A stretch of DNA of 56,903 nucleotides from Ignavibacteriales bacterium (GTDB lineage Bacteria; Bacteroidota; Ignavibacteria; Ignavibacteriales; SURF-24), in assembly GCA_026390815.1 (NCBI GenBank), contig JAPLFH010000032.1, positions 1-56,903 on the forward strand. Reading direction: 5' to 3'. Below, in pieces: positions 41,429-50,437 of this stretch; positions within the stretch are counted from its first letter, which is position 1, and every line of letters starts with the position of its first letter. A model generated the notes under the pieces. That model ran no database searches. It saw nothing but the letters and a program-made list of their open reading frames with translations, and was not told the origin of the DNA. A program made the position numbers and the translations under genes.

Positions 41429-42472
41429 TTGATACAACAATTTTTAGAGAGGTACAAAATAATACGCACTTTTACTTCCATTCGTTATCTGTTTATAATT
41501 GCAATTTTCTTCTCAACTAATTTACAAGGTGCGGAAAAAATATTCCCCAAAACCCAGGATAGCAGTATCACTACAAAAGAAAGTTTTGCAAAGCCATTAA
41601 ACGATTCCAATTTTGTCTCCCAACAAAACGATTCACTAAAAGTATCTTCTGAAAGTATTTCAAAAGATTCATTAGAATTGCCCCCGGTAATTCTTCCTAA
41701 GTGGTATGAAATGATAACTAATGTACCAGATGATTGGTGGCGTTTTACAAAGGACCAATTTAATGAACCCAATTACCCGCTTTATATTTTGCTGGCTGGG
41801 GCAACTACCGCACTTATTATTAATGATGATTATACATTTAAAATCTCAGATAAATTTTATAAACAGAGTCAGTTTACAAGAAACTTTAGCGATTGGTTTA
41901 AAGAAATTGGTGACGGCAGAACTCAATTTGGGTTAGCAGCCGGGTTTGCAGCATTTGGATTTATTTCAGATGATCACCGCGCATTAAAAACAGCAAGTCA
42001 AATTGTAGAAGCAGTTCTTGCGGCAGGTTCTGTTGTTCAGTTAATAAAACATGTTACCGGAAGAGAAAGCCCTTTTGTTGCATCAAGCTCTACAGGCAAG
42101 TGGCGATTCTTTCCAAACCAGATAGAATATCATAAACATGTTCCGGTTTATGATGCATTCCCTTCGGGACATATTGCGACTTCTGTTGCGACGTTTGTTG
42201 TTATTATAGAAAATTATCCGGAATATAAAAGCTGGACGATTCACGCCAGCTATGCCTTATCCGCTCTGATATGTTTTGGCATGGTTAACAGTGGAATTCA
42301 CTGGTACAGCGATTATCCTTTGGGTATTGCAATTGGTTATGCTTTTGGAAAGTTGATTGCCAATCCACAAAGTATTAATTTAACTGAAGATGAAAACAGC
42401 AAAAAGAAACTTAGCATCTTGCCATATGTTAACAGGACCAGTCTCGGCTTGTCTTTCAATTTAAGCTTTTAA
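41429..42472 (+). CDS. PAP2-family phosphatase (membrane)
   Basis: A 347-residue protein. After a hydrophobic N-terminus (about 18-36) and a serine-rich linker come several membrane helices holding the PAP2 signatures: KHVTGRESPF, FPSGHIATSVAT, and GIHWYSDYPLG. All catalytic residues (Lys/Arg, His, His, Asp) appear present. It probably dephosphorylates an undecaprenyl- or phosphatidyl-pyrophosphate-type lipid. The start appears to be TTG at 41429; no nearby ATG exists. A homologue follows 3 bases after the stop. Confidence 0.85.
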   Translation: MIQQFLERYKIIRTFTSIRYLFIIAIFFSTNLQGAEKIFPKTQDSSITTKESFAKPLNDSNFVSQQNDSLKVSSESISKDSLELPPVILPKWYEMITNVPDDWWRFTKDQFNEPNYPLYILLAGATTALIINDDYTFKISDKFYKQSQFTRNFSDWFKEIGDGRTQFGLAAGFAAFGFISDDHRALKTASQIVEAVLAAGSVVQLIKHVTGRESPFVASSSTGKWRFFPNQIEYHKHVPVYDAFPSGHIATSVATFVVIIENYPEYKSWTIHASYALSALICFGMVNSGIHWYSDYPLGIAIGYAFGKLIANPQSINLTEDENSKKKLSILPYVNRTSLGLSFNLSF

Positions 42473-42475
42473 AGA

Positions 42476-43393
42476 ATGATGATTATATTTTCCATATTTC
42501 CTTACTTTTTTCTATTACTTACCTTGATTGTAAACGCACAGGATAGCCTGCCCATTGATGTGCACGTTATCGATTCAACCCAAATAATCTCTTCTGAAAA
42601 AGAAAAGTTAAATTCCATAACATGGCACCAAATGTTTACAAATATTCCGGATGATTATTATTCTTTTGGAAAGTATCATACAAACTTTGAAAATACCCGG
42701 GAAATATTTGGAGTAGTAAGTTTAACAGGATTATTAACTTTGGTGGATCATGAAGCATGGGATTTTACCGACAAATTATCCACCAAAAATCCATTTGTTC
42801 GCGATACAAAAGAAAAATTATTATATCTTGGTGATGGCAAATTTAGTTTAATAGTTGCCGGATTATTTTCCATTTATGGGTTGGCTGCCAACGACCAAAA
42901 AAGTTATAAAACTTCCAGCAATTTAATTGAAGCCTTGCTTGCTACCGGAATTTTGGTTCAGGTTCTTAAAAGATCTTTCGGACGAGAAAGCCCCGCGGTG
43001 AATTCAACAGGAAGCGGCAACTGGGATTTATTCCCTTCAATAAAAAAATATCAGAATAACCAGTCTAAGTATTACGCATTTCCATCCGGACATATTGCAA
43101 CCTTAACAGCCACATTAACGGTAATAGCAAATAATTATCCGGAAGAAACCTGGATTAAACCAGTCAGTTATGCAGCTATCGGGCTTGTCGGAATTTCTCT
43201 TGTAAGCAAAGGCTGGCACTGGTACAGCGACTTTCCGCTCGGAATTTATCTTGGATACACATTGGGAAATATTGTTGCCCCAACGAAAAAAACTGTTGAA
43301 CAATCAAATGGAAAATCCACTAATAATGAATTGTCAATACTTCCAATAATCCATCCACAGAATTTAGGAATCCAGCTACTCTATAAATTTTAA
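42476..43393 (+). CDS. PAP2-family phosphatase (tandem paralogue)
   Basis: A 305-residue paralogue of the preceding gene, with the motif set KRSFGRESP, FPSGHIATLTAT and GWHWYSDFPLG and a similar N-terminal NIPDDYYSFGKYH (NVPDDWWRFTKDQ in the first). The identical plan and back-to-back position indicate local duplication. The N-terminal signal sequence ends near LIVNAQD. The two may act on different lipid phosphates. Confidence 0.85.
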   Translation: MMIIFSIFPYFFLLLTLIVNAQDSLPIDVHVIDSTQIISSEKEKLNSITWHQMFTNIPDDYYSFGKYHTNFENTREIFGVVSLTGLLTLVDHEAWDFTDKLSTKNPFVRDTKEKLLYLGDGKFSLIVAGLFSIYGLAANDQKSYKTSSNLIEALLATGILVQVLKRSFGRESPAVNSTGSGNWDLFPSIKKYQNNQSKYYAFPSGHIATLTATLTVIANNYPEETWIKPVSYAAIGLVGISLVSKGWHWYSDFPLGIYLGYTLGNIVAPTKKTVEQSNGKSTNNELSILPIIHPQNLGIQLLYKF

Positions 43394-43489
43394 CTTTCTA
43401 ACTTCCTTTCGATTTAAATTGCACCAAACAAAGTGTTAAGAAATGTTAAGATGGAAGATTTTTATCTTATCCATTGTTACCTTTGTATT

Positions 43490-45154
43490 ATGAAGTTGAA
43501 GAAAAAAGCAATCATATTAATAACAATCTTAATTTCAATTGCTCTAACAGGATTGATTTTACTGCAAATATATTTTTTAAAGAATGCAATTCAACAAAAG
43601 GAACAAGCATTTGATCATAATATTCAAATTGTACTTAACAATGTTGTTCAAGAACTTGAAGCAAACGAGGCAACCAAAGGAATTTTTGAAGTTGCTGCTA
43701 ACGATACCACATTTTGGAATGGCAAACTTCCTCAGCCTGATTTAGATACAATTAAATATTTTAGAAATAACTCCCGGATGAAAAAACCAACGCAAATATT
43801 TGTATCTACATATTCCTCGAACGAAAATGGAAAGACGAAAAATATTGTAATTAAAATTGATTCTACCGGAAAGAGAACAACAGTAATTAAAGATTCTGTT
43901 TTGCAAATTAAGCCAGATGTACGGCTGCCTTCCGGCAGAAAAGGATTTGCGTATAAGTATTCTTTAGATAGCAATGTTGATTTTAAAATTGATGACGAAA
44001 AACAGGTGGGTATATTTCTTCGTGAACTTTCAACAAAAAACAAAAAGAGAATTGTTACGCGGGTAATGGACCGGCTAATCCTAACCGATGAAATACCGAT
44101 AGAAAAAAGGATCAATCTTGGTACTGTGGATTCCCTGCTAAAAAGTAAGCTAAATGAAACCGGGGTTTCTTTAGCTTATAAATTTGGAATCACTTCAGAA
44201 AAAGATAATAAACTAAAAATATTTCCAGTTGGAGCTGATAAAAAATTACTTACCTCAAATTTGAAAGTAAAATTATTTCCGACTGATGTTCTTACATCGC
44301 CGAATATGTTAACCATTTATTTTCCGGAAAGAACATTATTCATCTTAAAAGAAATTTCTTTATTGATGATCCTGGCATTCTTATTTATTCTTATTATCGT
44401 ATTAAGTTTTATTTATACAATCAGAACAATTGTAAATCAAAAACGATTTGCTTCCCTTGTTGTTGATTTTATTAATAACATGACGCACGAATTTAAAACA
44501 CCCATTTCCACAATATCTCTTGCTTCAGAAGCTATTGATAATCCGGTTGTATCTGATGATAAAGAAAAACTTAATAGGTACAATAGAATTATTAAAGATG
44601 AAAATAAGCGAATGCGCCAGCAGGTAGAAAAAATTCTTCAGATGGCTGTGCTGGAAGAAGGTGATTATGAATTGGATTTAACTAACTTAGATTTTCACTC
44701 AATAATTGAACAAGCAGCACAAAATACCGGACTAAAGGTTGATGGAAATGGTGGTAAGCTTTTATTAAATCTAACAGCCCAAAACCATTTTGTTAAAGGA
44801 GACGTAGTTCACCTGACAAACATTATCCATAACATTTTAGATAACGCAGTTAAATATTCTCCGGACATTATCGAAATAAACATTACTACAGTTGATTTAA
44901 ACGATGGGATTTTAATTAAGATTTCTGATAAAGGAATTGGAATTAAAGAAGAAGATTTAAAGAAAATTTTTGATAAATATTTCCGCGTGCTCTCCGGTAA
45001 TATCCACGATGTTAAAGGATTTGGATTGGGATTAAGTTATGTAAAACTAATGGTGGAAGCTCACAAAGGCACCATCACCATGAACAGCAAATACAATAAA
45101 GGAACTGAAGTGCAAATATTTCTTCCATCATTCGCTAAAAAGGATTTACAATAA
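43490..45154 (+). CDS. membrane sensor histidine kinase
   Basis: A 554-residue kinase from the ATG at 43490 (MKLKKKAIILITILISIA); an upstream in-frame start would add 19 residues that look unlike a signal segment. It has two membrane helices (about 8-28 and 290-320) around a large periplasmic domain of unknown fold. HisKA has INNMTHEFKTPISTISLA, and the HATPase has IIHNILDNAVKYS, DKGIGIKEEDL and GFGLGLSYVKLM. A TACCTTTG sequence (43478-43485), like the Bacteroidota -7 element, lies just upstream and could give a nearly leaderless mRNA. The OmpR-type regulator follows without a gap. Confidence 0.9.
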   Translation: MKLKKKAIILITILISIALTGLILLQIYFLKNAIQQKEQAFDHNIQIVLNNVVQELEANEATKGIFEVAANDTTFWNGKLPQPDLDTIKYFRNNSRMKKPTQIFVSTYSSNENGKTKNIVIKIDSTGKRTTVIKDSVLQIKPDVRLPSGRKGFAYKYSLDSNVDFKIDDEKQVGIFLRELSTKNKKRIVTRVMDRLILTDEIPIEKRINLGTVDSLLKSKLNETGVSLAYKFGITSEKDNKLKIFPVGADKKLLTSNLKVKLFPTDVLTSPNMLTIYFPERTLFILKEISLLMILAFLFILIIVLSFIYTIRTIVNQKRFASLVVDFINNMTHEFKTPISTISLASEAIDNPVVSDDKEKLNRYNRIIKDENKRMRQQVEKILQMAVLEEGDYELDLTNLDFHSIIEQAAQNTGLKVDGNGGKLLLNLTAQNHFVKGDVVHLTNIIHNILDNAVKYSPDIIEINITTVDLNDGILIKISDKGIGIKEEDLKKIFDKYFRVLSGNIHDVKGFGLGLSYVKLMVEAHKGTITMNSKYNKGTEVQIFLPSFAKKDLQ

Positions 45155-45847
45155 ATGCAAAAGATGAAAATTCTACTTTTAGAAGATGATGCAAATCTTG
45201 GCTTTATACTTAAAGAACATCTTGAAATGAAAGAGTTTGATGTAAAACTTTCTACAAATGGTGTTGAAGGAATGATCGAATATAATAAAGCCAATTACAA
45301 CATTTGTCTTGTAGATGTAATGATGCCCAAGAAGGATGGCTTTACTTTTGTAAAAGAAGTCCGCCAAAAAGATCAGAAAATCCCAATTATCTTTCTAACT
45401 GCAAAATCACTTAAGGAAGATCGGATAACCGGATTTAAAGTTGGCTGTGATGATTATATTACCAAGCCATTTAGTATGGAAGAACTCCTGCTGCGTATTC
45501 AAGCGGTTTTAAGACGAAGTGTTAATGGATTAGAAAATGAGGTACTTATTCAATTCAAAATCGGCAGATATTTTTTTGATAGTATTAATCAAACATTGCA
45601 GATTGGTAAACAAGTAGAATTCTTAACAACAAAAGAATCAGAACTTCTTCATTTACTTTGCTTAAATATGAATAGAGTTTTGGACCGCAATGAAGCCCTT
45701 ACTAAAATCTGGGGAAGCGATTCTTATTTTAGTGCCCGCAGCATGGATGTTTTTATCTCCAAAATCAGAAAATGTCTCGCGGAAGATTCAAGAATATCAA
45801 TTGTTAATGTTCACGGCAGAGGTTTTAAATTGGTGGTTAACTCATAG
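45155..45847 (+). CDS. OmpR-family response regulator
   Basis: A 230-residue regulator. The receiver domain has LLLEDDANLG, the phospho-Asp in LVDVMMPKKDG, LTAKS, and ITKPF. It is followed by a winged-helix domain with FLTTKESELLHLLCLN and SMDVFISKIRKCL. It begins directly after the stop of the kinase gene (no spacing), so the two form a cognate pair. Confidence 0.93.
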   Translation: MQKMKILLLEDDANLGFILKEHLEMKEFDVKLSTNGVEGMIEYNKANYNICLVDVMMPKKDGFTFVKEVRQKDQKIPIIFLTAKSLKEDRITGFKVGCDDYITKPFSMEELLLRIQAVLRRSVNGLENEVLIQFKIGRYFFDSINQTLQIGKQVEFLTTKESELLHLLCLNMNRVLDRNEALTKIWGSDSYFSARSMDVFISKIRKCLAEDSRISIVNVHGRGFKLVVNS

Positions 45848-45919: not shown

Positions 45920-46016
45920 ATCATTGAATACTAATCGAAAATGGTTACCTTTAATAAGGTACCATAAATGTGGCAAATGATAAGTTGCATCAATCTAAAA
46001 ATTTTTTGAGGACTAT

Positions 46017-49000
46017 TTGAAAGTATCCATAATAATTCCGGCTTTTAATTCGGCAGAAACAATATCCGACACAATAAAATCTGTTCAAGCACAAACACAT
46101 AAAGATTGGGAAGCAATTGTTATAAATGATGGCTCAACTGATGATACTGCAAAGATTGTAGAAAAATTCATTGAATCAGATAAACGATTTCGAATTGTAA
46201 ATGGCTCACATCAAGGAGTTGGCGCAGCCAGAAACACTGGAATTAAACATGCGAAATATGACTGGCTTCTGTTTTTGGATTCTGATGATTGGATAGCGAA
46301 TAAACACCTTGAACTGCTAACAGCCAAACTAAAAGAAGATCCCAAGCTCGATGCAGTTCATTCAAATTGGGTACGTGTTGCAACCGGCGGCAAAATCATT
46401 CATCAAAAACCCTTTAAGGAGACTGGTGATTTATTTAAAACATTTGCAAGAACTTGCGCTATTACTATTCATCCCTGTCTTTTCCGCAAAAGTCTTATTG
46501 AAGAAGTTGGCTGTTTTGATACTTCCTTAAATACCTGCGAGGATTGGGATCTTTGGCAAAAAATTACCAGAAGCGGGGCAAATTTTGGATTTGTTGATGA
46601 AGTGCTCGCCTTTTACCGGATGAGAGAATTTTCAGCATCCAATGATGGATTTCAAATGGTTAAGGACGCACTTTTTGTTTTAGAACGTGGGCACTCAGAA
46701 GATCCAAGAGTACCAAATCCAAAACCTGAACATAAATTTGGTTTGCCCAAAAAAGAGCTGACTTACCGTAAATATCATTCTGCTTTTTGGGGAATAGGTT
46801 TAGCATTAGGAAATAAAAAGGATCCGATTCCTCTGCTCGATCTAATAGGCGATGAAGCCTGCCCAACAATAGAACCCTACGGTATTGCAGAAACTTTGTT
46901 TGAATCTGTTCCCCTCCCAAAGTGTTTGATGCCCGAAGATTGGGTCCAACTTTTACCGGAAATTGAGAATGATTTGGAAAAATTCCTGGATGCTCTGGAA
47001 ATTAAATCTAAAGCAACAAGATTAAAGCTTAGAGTTAAACAGTCACTAGAACTAATAATTGCAGAAAATATAAAATTTGATAAGCCGGTCATTCTTGGTA
47101 AGACATTTTGGACAAGTATTGAGGTTACTAAAAAAGTTATGGATCTGCATCTTCCGCATTCTGTTGAAAGATTAGGTTGTCAGGTTCTTTACAAGGGGAA
47201 CATTATTGGAAATATTGAATTACCGGTCTTTGATAATTTTGTTCCGGCGGATGTCTTGATAGACGATATTGCAAATAAATGCTCGTGGGACATTTTGAGA
47301 AAATATTTTTCAGAAACGATATATAAAGAACTCTTCTTAATTAGAAATGGAAATAAATTGCTGATTAAAAGAGGGAGTCTTGTATTAGGAGAATTAAACA
47401 GTAAATCAGAAACAATTAATTGGGATGAAATTCATGATCATATTGGATGGACTGTTTTCCTGCAAGAAGCCTGGCACTTACCCAAATATAGCAGTGATGA
47501 TTTTTACAATCCAAATTTGAGTTTATTTAACACAAAAAAAATCAAATTAAAAGACGGATTGATTAATATAGAAATTAGTAGCGCCTTAAATGATGTTCAA
47601 GTATCTACAAGATATTTGAATGTGCTTGTTTCAGTTGGCGGAGAGAAAATTGGTGTTGTTAATATCGAAGCTAAACACAGTAAAGTTTCTGCTGGTAAAA
47701 TTAGGACAGAGATAACAACTAAAACCGGATATGAACTTTGCAAAGCAGTCGTAAAAAATACATTAATTGGAAGTGAATTCGATGATGCCGGTACTTTATA
47801 CAACAGGTTAATTGCTTCCTATGAAAAGAGATTAAAAGAAAAATCAATTTCAGATAGTAAAAATGATTCCAATATTAATCTCCAATCATTTACCTTACCT
47901 GAAGGTAGTATGATAATTGGAAGGCGATATCCGGATTCATTTGGAACAAGTGCCTCTCGGAAAGCAATTTTACCCAAATCGATTTATATGGAGCTGCTTA
48001 ATTCTTCTAAAGTGAATAATGACTTTGTATTAAAAAACTTTAATGGAAAAGGACCAGATAAAGTTATTTACAATCCCGAAGTTATTAATTCTTCATCATT
48101 ACCTTCGTTAATAAGGAAGGAGGAAAATCATCAACCTGTAATTGATAGGACAATGATTGCTACGCATTATGACAAAGATTTTTTCGAAAACCTTTTTTCT
48201 GCGGCTGAAGATCCATGGAATTATACTTCTGAATATGAACAGATTAAATATGAGCAGACACTTTCACTAGTTCCAAAAAAAATAATTAATTCAGCCCTGG
48301 AAATCGCTTGTGCAGAAGGGCATTTTACAGCTCAACTTGCACCGCGTGTGATGAAACTTACTGCGGCAGATTTTTCGCAGACTGCTTTGGCAAGAACAAA
48401 ATCAAGATGTAGTTTTTATTCAAACATCTCTTATCTTCAATTAGATATTTCTGAAGATGCCATTCCAGAACAATACAATCTGATTATTTGCAGCGAGGTT
48501 CTATTATTCATGAAAGGGAAGGAAAATTTAATTGCAGTTGCTAAAAAAATTTCTGCTGCATTAAAACCTGGTGGAACTTTAATAATGGCAAATGGTAATG
48601 TAGCTGCAGATGAACCGAATGAAACGGGTTTCAATTGGGATGTTCCTTTTGGAGCAAAAGTAATTGGTGAAACCTTTTCATCAATAAATTCCATAAGAAA
48701 AATAAAAGAATTAAAAACCCCGCTATATCATATTCAGCAATTCATGAAGAAGCAGAAAATTGATTTTGGAATATTTAGTAAACCCAATATTATAGAACTT
48801 CCTCTCCAGGCAAAATTAACAAAAGAAGTTTATTCCCAGGTTTTGTGGAAGGGAAAAGTAGTTCCGGATAGCATTGTAAAATCCAAAGAATTAAACTCAA
48901 GTTTACCAATATTAATGTATCATCGGATTTCGGCCGATGGATTGGTTGAAACTTCGAGATATAAGATTACGCCGGATGATTTTTACGAACAAATGAAATA

Positions 49001-49613
49001 TTTATTTGAAAATGGTTTTTATACTATCTCCATAAATGAGTGGGGAAAAGCGATACTTAACAACAAGCCCCTTCCAGGCAAAGCTATAAGCCTAACATTT
49101 GATGATGGCTTTAAAGATTTTTACACTTATGCTGCCCCAATTTTGAAGGAGTTTGGATTTTCTGCAACTGTATTTTTGGTGGTCAATTGCATTGGTAAAA
49201 CCAATAAATGGGATAGTCATTATGGTGAAGAAATTGAATTGATGAATTGGGATGAGATTCGGGAACTGCAAATACAGGGAATTCAGTTTGGGTCCCACTC
49301 ACTAAATCATCTGCCGTTAACTTCTGTTCCACCAACAGAAGTGGTAATAGAAGCAATCAAATCAAGAGAGATTTTATCGCGTGAATTGGGAACGCAAGTT
49401 GATTTATTCGCATATCCATATGGTGATGTTAACGATTCCGTTAAACACATTATTGGTGCTTGCGGCTATTTGTATGCAGTATCAACTGAATATACTTTAA
49501 GCACTTTACAAGATAAACTGCTTTCTTTACCAAGAATTGAAATAATGGGTTCTGATTCAATTGAATCTTTCAGCGAAAAATTGGCTGCGGAATTTTCTAT
49601 TGCACAAAAATAA
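46017..49613 (+). CDS. trifunctional GT2 glycosyltransferase / methyltransferase / polysaccharide deacetylase fusion
   Basis: A 1198-residue protein. Residues 1-230 are a GT2 glycosyltransferase (IIPAFNSAETI; NDGSTDD at 37-43; LDSDDW at 87-92; CEDWDLW at 174-180). Residues about 350-610 hold two beta-rich segments of unknown role. Around 635-680 lies a conserved-looking GRRYPDSFGTSASRKAILP. Residues about 700-890 are a SAM methyltransferase (ALEIACAEGHFTAQL). Residues about 960-1195 are a NodB-type deacetylase (LMYHRIS; FDDG at 1028-1031; SHSLNHLPL). The start is TTG with GAGG upstream. No signal peptide or transmembrane helix is evident, so it acts in the cytoplasm or at the membrane face. 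Confidence 0.9.
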   Translation: MKVSIIIPAFNSAETISDTIKSVQAQTHKDWEAIVINDGSTDDTAKIVEKFIESDKRFRIVNGSHQGVGAARNTGIKHAKYDWLLFLDSDDWIANKHLELLTAKLKEDPKLDAVHSNWVRVATGGKIIHQKPFKETGDLFKTFARTCAITIHPCLFRKSLIEEVGCFDTSLNTCEDWDLWQKITRSGANFGFVDEVLAFYRMREFSASNDGFQMVKDALFVLERGHSEDPRVPNPKPEHKFGLPKKELTYRKYHSAFWGIGLALGNKKDPIPLLDLIGDEACPTIEPYGIAETLFESVPLPKCLMPEDWVQLLPEIENDLEKFLDALEIKSKATRLKLRVKQSLELIIAENIKFDKPVILGKTFWTSIEVTKKVMDLHLPHSVERLGCQVLYKGNIIGNIELPVFDNFVPADVLIDDIANKCSWDILRKYFSETIYKELFLIRNGNKLLIKRGSLVLGELNSKSETINWDEIHDHIGWTVFLQEAWHLPKYSSDDFYNPNLSLFNTKKIKLKDGLINIEISSALNDVQVSTRYLNVLVSVGGEKIGVVNIEAKHSKVSAGKIRTEITTKTGYELCKAVVKNTLIGSEFDDAGTLYNRLIASYEKRLKEKSISDSKNDSNINLQSFTLPEGSMIIGRRYPDSFGTSASRKAILPKSIYMELLNSSKVNNDFVLKNFNGKGPDKVIYNPEVINSSSLPSLIRKEENHQPVIDRTMIATHYDKDFFENLFSAAEDPWNYTSEYEQIKYEQTLSLVPKKIINSALEIACAEGHFTAQLAPRVMKLTAADFSQTALARTKSRCSFYSNISYLQLDISEDAIPEQYNLIICSEVLLFMKGKENLIAVAKKISAALKPGGTLIMANGNVAADEPNETGFNWDVPFGAKVIGETFSSINSIRKIKELKTPLYHIQQFMKKQKIDFGIFSKPNIIELPLQAKLTKEVYSQVLWKGKVVPDSIVKSKELNSSLPILMYHRISADGLVETSRYKITPDDFYEQMKYLFENGFYTISINEWGKAILNNKPLPGKAISLTFDDGFKDFYTYAAPILKEFGFSATVFLVVNCIGKTNKWDSHYGEEIELMNWDEIRELQIQGIQFGSHSLNHLPLTSVPPTEVVIEAIKSREILSRELGTQVDLFAYPYGDVNDSVKHIIGACGYLYAVSTEYTLSTLQDKLLSLPRIEIMGSDSIESFSEKLAAEFSIAQK

Positions 49614-49639: not shown

Positions 49640-50437
49640 TCAGGCTATTAATGTATTACCGGTTTCAAACGCATTTGTAAAACGATCCAGCCCATGGCTT
49701 CCACCATTTACCAACCGCCGGGCAGACTTCAGATCATCATCCAGGAGCGCTTCTTTAATTTTCATTTCTTTATCCTTAAGAAATTTAGTTAGCAGCTTGG
49801 CTGCAATTTCCGGGTCATTGGCAAGGTCTGGATTTTCAATCAACTTATTTCCCAATCCAATTGCATTACCATACTTTTGATAATTGGCTCTGCCAGTTAA
49901 CTGAATGAATCCTCTTCCTTTAAAACTGGCTCCATCAGGCGCACCCTGGTTGCCAATATCTTTTCTGTTATCATAAAGATCGTAAGGCTTTCCACCCGGC
50001 GAAGTATTGTAACGTGAAATGTATTCACTTATCGGGACAAAACCTTCTGTTTCTGCACGGATAGTTGCAAGCGCCATTAAAATAAATCTTTTATCATTCA
50101 ATCCTTCATCAGCCAAAGCATTAAGAATATATGGCAGATATTTTTTTATGTTATCAATTGGAGCAGATGGAAACATTTTACATACAATCGCAACGGTAAC
50201 ATTGGAAGTTGAATCTGGAACTTCAACTTTAATATCCAAACCCAATGCATCTAAAGTATTTTGTCCGGCAATCCCATCGGCAAGCAATCCCTTGCTCTTT
50301 TGAAAATTTATTAGTGCGGCTTCAGTTCCCGATCCGAAATCGCCATCAATAGCTCCAGGATTAAATCCCAGTTCATTCAATTTTTGCTGAAGATTCTTTA
50401 CTTCAGTACCATTCATTCCTTCTTTAAGAGTTGTCAT
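49640..50437 (-). CDS. peptidoglycan-binding plus GH19-type glycoside hydrolase
   Basis: A 265-residue protein. Residues about 8-62 are a PG_binding_1 domain (VKNLQQKLNELGFNPGAIDG, DFGSGTEAALINFQ). Residues about 90-265 are a chitinase-19-like lysozyme domain with a Glu in ATIRAETEGF and the family signature FKGRGFIQLTGRANYQKYG. It has no signal peptide. This suits an endolysin-type or otherwise non-Sec-secreted enzyme. No other phage genes lie around it. It runs toward the trifunctional gene with a 26-base gap. Confidence 0.85.
   Translation of the reverse strand: MTTLKEGMNGTEVKNLQQKLNELGFNPGAIDGDFGSGTEAALINFQKSKGLLADGIAGQNTLDALGLDIKVEVPDSTSNVTVAIVCKMFPSAPIDNIKKYLPYILNALADEGLNDKRFILMALATIRAETEGFVPISEYISRYNTSPGGKPYDLYDNRKDIGNQGAPDGASFKGRGFIQLTGRANYQKYGNAIGLGNKLIENPDLANDPEIAAKLLTKFLKDKEMKIKEALLDDDLKSARRLVNGGSHGLDRFTNAFETGNTLIA

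Follow-up and report, generated by a model that had tools for sequence, protein, structure and literature searches.

A possible glycan-finishing enzyme that joins a glycosyltransferase, a NodS-like methyltransferase and a polysaccharide deacetylase in one chain

What would a bacterium do with a glycosyltransferase (GT), a methyltransferase (MTase) and a polysaccharide deacetylase joined in one polypeptide? The question is raised by a gene in a 56,903-nucleotide stretch of an Ignavibacteriales genome (assembly GCA_026390815.1, contig JAPLFH010000032.1, positions 1 to 56,903; hereafter, the window). The gene (46017..49613, +) encodes a trifunctional GT/class I S-adenosylmethionine (SAM) MTase/polysaccharide deacetylase of 1198 amino acids (aa). 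It begins with TTG and, judged from the sequence, has a plausible ribosome-binding site, GAGGA, 4 nucleotides before this start (46008..46012, +). Our answer, offered tentatively and with a little more doubt than belief, is that the product may be a cytosolic glycan-finishing enzyme of three steps, namely, addition of an N-acetylated hexosamine (HexNAc), deacetylation and N-methylation, which would dock through a duplicated domain of ∼66 aa, serve glycans exported by ATP-binding cassette (ABC) transporters and probably leave a mark at the chain end.

Sequence analysis shows the domains, intact active sites, duplication, domain sharing with partner GTs and neighborhoods that we describe. A preliminary description of the window had read the product as a family 2 GT (GT2), an MTase and a deacetylase in one chain, and Pfam confirmed this reading, with matches, in order, to Glycos_transf_2 (residues 4-164, E 5.7e-37), NodS (residues 729-888, E 3.1e-25) and Polysacc_deac_1 (residues 1017-1153, E 2.1e-24). 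NCBIfam found NodS in the middle and PgaB/IcaB at the C terminus, with every score far under the equivalog cutoff. The structure prediction that the same description had proposed, run with AlphaFold2, modeled the full chain with confidence (mean pLDDT 90, pTM 0.79; 54 sequences in the alignment). The GT2 domain (46026..46508, +; residues 4-164) has the conserved D88 and D90, followed just C-terminally by E175 and D176, also conserved; the NodS-family MTase domain (48201..48680, +; residues 729-888) contains DPWNY..YEQIKY, LEIACAEGHFT and CSEVL; and the deacetylase domain, a carbohydrate esterase of family 4 (CE4) of the PgaB/IcaB/PplD type (48903..49568, +; residues 963-1184), contains MYH, TFDDG (D1029, D1030), H1094, H1098, AYPYG and LPRIE. 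Its metal site (TFDD, H-x3-H) is intact in the window protein.

Loss of catalytic residues in homologs, named beforehand as a finding that would speak against a common task, was looked for: all three sites are kept in the window protein and in nearly all of the 53 homologs, from about ten phyla, the exceptions being a second copy in locus L053 and the proteins of L054 and L113. In the 54-sequence alignment, D88, E175, D176 and Q181 of the GT2 domain, the DPW motif, E762, G768, D785 and E827 of the MTase and D1029, D1030, H1094 and H1098 of the deacetylase are kept almost without exception; the protein of L110, which has a longer C terminus, keeps D1029 in the full alignment. A GTSASRKAILP motif noted earlier between the enzyme domains is indeed present (47943..47975, +; residues 643-653) and is conserved in long homologs as IGTSxSRRAxLP (24 sequences; R and L at least 90%, P invariant).

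A genome scan for the fusion yielded 79 loci, in Cyanobacteriota, Ignavibacteriota, Planctomycetota, Verrucomicrobiota, Acidobacteriota, Gemmatimonadota, Myxococcota, Calditrichota, Omnitrophota and Pseudomonadota. Since the full fusion occurs in about ten phyla, it is no assembly accident. The preliminary description noted that such proteins are named in databases and are not known to have an identified product, which agrees with what we found: NCBI uses the name “trifunctional glycosyltransferase/class I SAM-dependent methyltransferase/polysaccharide deacetylase,” for example, for WP_013334356.1 (Gloeothece verrucosa), WP_243254667.1 (Sulfitobacter indolifex) and WP_094088823.1 (Rhizobium leguminosarum), and our literature search, with most of the subscription-only work on the Rhizobium etli O antigen outside its scope, found no paper on this name and no product. 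The window protein shares with this family the three domains, their order and full-length matches at roughly 35 to 45% identity. Many family members, however, are encoded in polysaccharide clusters that include ABC exporters, whereas the window gene stands alone, with a two-component system on one side and a gene for a glycoside hydrolase of family 19 (GH19) on the other. The window protein is divergent and an orphan within a family that has a name but no explanation.

The three activities recall those that NodC, NodS and NodB use to make modified chitin oligomers, and a Nod factor-like chitin oligosaccharide synthase in one chain would account for both the NodS family match and the CE4 deacetylase. 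The literal equation was not supported for any of the three domains, and we consider this explanation very improbable and rejected it. NodC-type synthases are membrane-spanning, processive GT2s, but the fusion has no predicted membrane segment (no 19-residue stretch has a mean hydropathy above 1.51), and the best sequence matches of its GT domain are chondroitin polymerase and GalT1, both soluble GT2s. Instead of NodB, the deacetylase has PplD (6dq3), PgaB and IcaB as its nearest relatives by sequence and fold, with the same metal-site motifs. PgaB and IcaB deacetylate polymer outside the cytosol, as exported or surface enzymes, whereas the fused deacetylase appears to be cytosolic. The MTase is NodS-like, with NodS (PF05401; 3ofj/3ofk) as its closest solved relative and the DPW..YE and (A/S)EVLYY signatures in common, but it scores 83.2 bits against an NCBIfam NodS equivalog cutoff of 300 bits, and NodS, a free-standing enzyme, forms one clade (99/98) separate from the fused domains in a tree whose outgroup branches are long. 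Finally, nodA, nodC and nodI were not found beside the fusion, NodIJ neighbors are likewise missing, and most carriers are nonsymbionts.

A survey of gene neighbors, also suggested in the preliminary description, places the homologs in clusters for ABC-exported polysaccharides. It used open reading frame clustering and Pfam, with counts made on 44 non-Mesorhizobium loci. At 16 of these loci the fusion has Wzm (ABC2_membrane) and Wzt with a Wzt_C domain as direct or close neighbors, at 17 an MsbA-type ABC transporter, and at 32 one or both kinds of exporter, often as the adjacent gene; further neighbors include several GT2s, epimerases and acyltransferases. These neighborhoods are clusters for cytosolic glycan assembly and ABC export. 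The GT2 domain would accordingly have a lipid-linked glycan in the cytosol as its acceptor for the HexNAc, and in most lineages the finished glycan would leave through a Wzm/Wzt or MsbA-type transporter. The earlier suggestion, of a protein that makes an N-modified glycan and trims it, agrees with these clusters, as it does with the habit of NodS-like MTases of lying beside deacetylases and GT2s. Known terminators in wzm/wzt clusters carry methyltransferase, kinase or GT modules, and WbdD, ORF6 of the Klebsiella pneumoniae O7 cluster and WbbB are, like the fusion, multimodule cytosolic glycan finishers encoded in such clusters (PMC11231755, PMC3482155). They differ in having other domains: the fusion has no kinase, no coiled-coil ruler was seen in it, and its action at the chain end is our inference.

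Relatives of the MTase point to the chemistry. Fused MTase domains, NodS and MTases linked to PIG-L deacetylases form three separate groups in the tree, and the nodS gene itself is accompanied by nodB and nodC. Among 13 annotated loci of plasmid-borne, free-standing NodS-like MTases, 10 have a deacetylase in the flank (9 PIG-L, 1 CE4) and 12 have a GT. An operon of acyl-CoA dehydrogenase, PIG-L deacetylase and NodS-like MTase genes, usually with a GT2 gene, recurs on plasmids (L128, L129, L130, L131, L139, L141, L195, L196 and L198), its hosts being Deinococcus, Acinetobacter, Novosphingobium, Komagataeibacter, Bradyrhizobium, Roseivivax, Roseomonas and Sphingobium; our literature search found no paper on it. 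These operons hold the same functional trio as the fusion but as separate genes, with an unrelated deacetylase fold, an added acyl-CoA dehydrogenase and MTases of their own clade. In Rubrobacter (L140), a CE4 deacetylase takes the place of PIG-L next to the MTase. The occurrence of two unrelated deacetylase folds beside one MTase family argues that the MTase acts on the freed amine, and the partnership fits a scheme of deacetylation followed by N-methylation. In the fusion, the CE4 domain would strip the acetyl group and expose the amine, which the NodS-like domain would then methylate. For the lipooligosaccharide of Acinetobacter baumannii, a GT and a deacetylase have been inferred to work as a pair, making a glucosamine and putting it in place (PMC10936431).

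Three cyanobacterial clusters look as if the finishing chemistry had been swapped. In each, the position after wzt that the trifunctional gene would occupy is taken by a gene for a sulfotransferase joined to two copies of the ∼66-aa domain and a CE4 domain whose metal site is broken, and the partner GTs are the same (L228:13595-16069; L229:4300-7005, −; L230:12947-15442). Their CE4 domains have D1030G and H1094M/L in all three cases and H1098Y in two. The second copy in L053, which also lacks the MTase, has H1094R, so that the deacetylase metal site is broken in all four MTase-less proteins. N-sulfation of the N-deacetylase/N-sulfotransferase type was rejected for the three sulfotransferase forms, whose metal site is broken in 3/3. 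Retention of the ∼66-aa pair together with a dead CE4 domain suggests a structural role for the C-terminal half. Two of these clusters also encode a Wzt of 690 aa with a second sulfotransferase domain after Wzt_C (L228:11444-13513, L230:10428-12497).

The ∼66-aa domain, which is undescribed, is the most interesting new part of the fusion. The preliminary description had seen two loosely similar beta-rich segments at about residues 350-430 and 520-600; they proved to be a real internal duplication, with copy 1 at 47118..47315 (+; residues 368-433) and copy 2 at 47568..47756 (+; residues 518-580), aligned by hhalign with a probability of 97.3 and an E value of 1.9e-11. The domain search proposed for this region returned nothing above noise in Pfam (DUF6073 0.07, RexA 0.095), a best E of 0.54 against PDB sequences and, with the copies not folded singly, a best Foldseek E of 0.72 and a best VIA-align Z of 3.4 against PDB folds. 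A known fold was therefore set aside for lack of a convincing match, which does not in itself prove a new one. An iterated hidden Markov model of the domain converged at 83 matches, of which 25 lie outside the fusion; the best shuffled match had an E of about 0.7 to 1.9. At 11 loci the domain is found in neighboring GTs, on the N-terminal side of their GT2 modules: in a family of single GT2s (12 proteins, 7 loci) and in one of double GT2s with a domain ahead of each module (4 loci). It is common to the fusion and its partner GTs and may be a docking or acceptor-binding module.

The domain is unevenly distributed. Long fusions of cyanobacteria, Ignavibacteria, Planctomycetes and others have two copies, fusions of Rhizobium, Maritimibacter and Novosphingobium have one detectable copy, and in those of Mesorhizobium, Bradyrhizobium and others none was detectable. 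It occurs in 12 of 146 sampled cyanobacterial genomes, mostly in one cluster per genome, and among 296 genomes sampled from the phylum of the window only in the window's own. Fusions with the domain are present at 15 of 16 Wzm/Wzt loci versus 5 of 16 MsbA-only loci (Fisher p 0.0006, with the kinship of loci ignored). A 189-aa frame in Brocadia (L045:450-1016) consists of little beyond two copies and has a 148-aa frame just before it; it is possibly the remains of a larger gene.

Several observations weigh against a finishing enzyme of this kind, and the first of them concern the chain end, which the N-methyl amino sugar would most likely mark. A coiled-coil molecular ruler is a feature of chain terminators of ABC-dependent O antigens (PMC11231755), and the model has no long ruler like those of WbdD and WbbB: its longest helix has about 26 residues, with no coiled-coil predictor run. 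The carbohydrate-binding domains of Wzt are 45 to 65% identical among cyanobacterial trifunctional clusters and 45 to 58% identical to those of sulfotransferase clusters. Tracking of the finishing enzyme by this domain was thus discarded, and since identity does not separate the two cluster types, a cap read by Wzt is unsupported by this test. Both results favor another view, that of an enzyme whose target is each repeat unit of the exported polysaccharide, or a branch sugar, its GT2 building part of the repeat while the other domains decorate it. The neighborhoods are equally compatible with this view, and half of the exporter loci use MsbA-type transporters, which are not known to need an end cap. 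However, the best-studied related chemistry, that of the Nod pathway, places both the deacetylation and the N-methylation on the terminal residue, the fusion gene directly adjoins wzt or wzm in many clusters, and the sulfotransferase replacement resembles a swapped finishing step. We regard repeat-unit modification as possible though rather unlikely.

The link between the MTase and the deacetylase is also open to objections. The MTase-less forms may have only two origins, and the plasmid sample of NodS-like MTases was drawn from top matches. In L054 the MTase is kept beside a degenerate CE4 domain, and L113 shows the reverse; with each retaining one of the two activities, the coupling is not strict. 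This leaves some room for a reading in which the fusion serves coassembly alone and the domains have separate positions or substrates as targets, one sugar being, for instance, O-methylated and a different one deacetylated, the more so as class I methyltransferases switch acceptor atoms easily. Such independence would not explain why the fusion is conserved in about ten phyla, why NodS-like MTases recur beside deacetylases of two folds or why the deacetylase site is broken in 4/4 MTase-less forms, and we think it unlikely. A last objection comes from the window itself: no polysaccharide genes were noted beside the gene, and neither its genome nor that of the relative described below has a Wzt_C gene.

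In the proposed three-step enzyme, then, we infer the identity of the sugar, the order of the steps, N- rather than O-methylation, the end position and the docking role. The evidence offers a named, unexplained fusion a testable place in the finishing of ABC-exported glycans, with deacetylation and then N-methylation as the likely chemistry and with an unannotated ∼66-aa domain common to finishing and building enzymes. If correct, it would explain how bacteria could come to bear N-methyl amino sugars on their surface glycans without the Nod pathway, and it would provide a single protein as a catalyst for their synthesis. A bolder version, which we hold to be doubtful, is that the fusion acts as a swappable finishing module in a widespread system of ABC-exported glycans, assembled with its partner GTs in a complex docked through the ∼66-aa domains, in which the end is closed by an N-methylated amino sugar or, after a swap, by sulfate. 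We are not aware of chain ends of this kind in this pathway.

In the window's genome the fusion is an orphan in a setting of its own. Directly upstream lie genes for a sensor histidine kinase (43433..45154, +) and an OmpR-type response regulator (45155..45847, +), and downstream a convergent gene encodes a peptidoglycan-binding and GH19 protein, chitinase/endolysin-like (49640..50437, −). The order kinase-regulator-fusion-GH19 is shared with one relative of the same family, G001 (an Ignavibacteriales SURF_24 assembly), in which the fusion is 47 to 48% identical and the GH19 ortholog, in the same place, 75%. The count is two genomes, as L039 and L007 belong to one (G039 = G001). Another family member, G004, has the kinase-regulator pair followed by other genes, without fusion or GH19, and a full-length homolog was not found in three more genomes of the family or in 34 elsewhere in the order. 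The fusion was likely gained horizontally beside the two-component system.

This setting raises the idea that in the window's lineage the fusion was reused, together with GH19 and under the neighboring two-component system, for a peptidoglycan- or chitin-like glycan of the cell wall. The conserved order in the only relative that carries the fusion (L127), its absence from G004 and the missing Wzt_C genes are in keeping with such reuse. Yet only two genomes show the arrangement, the GH19 gene is convergent and not cotranscribed, and its product may be a plain lysozyme-like enzyme; we consider the idea improbable. The GH19 protein is endolysin-like, has no obvious signal peptide and is better conserved than the fusion. 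Two adjacent genes for PAP2-family phosphatases lie just upstream of the kinase gene (41429-43393, +). Elsewhere in the window's genome (G000:C14, locus L004), another long protein has a C-terminal polysaccharide-deacetylase domain behind what seems to be a large glycoside hydrolase-like part.

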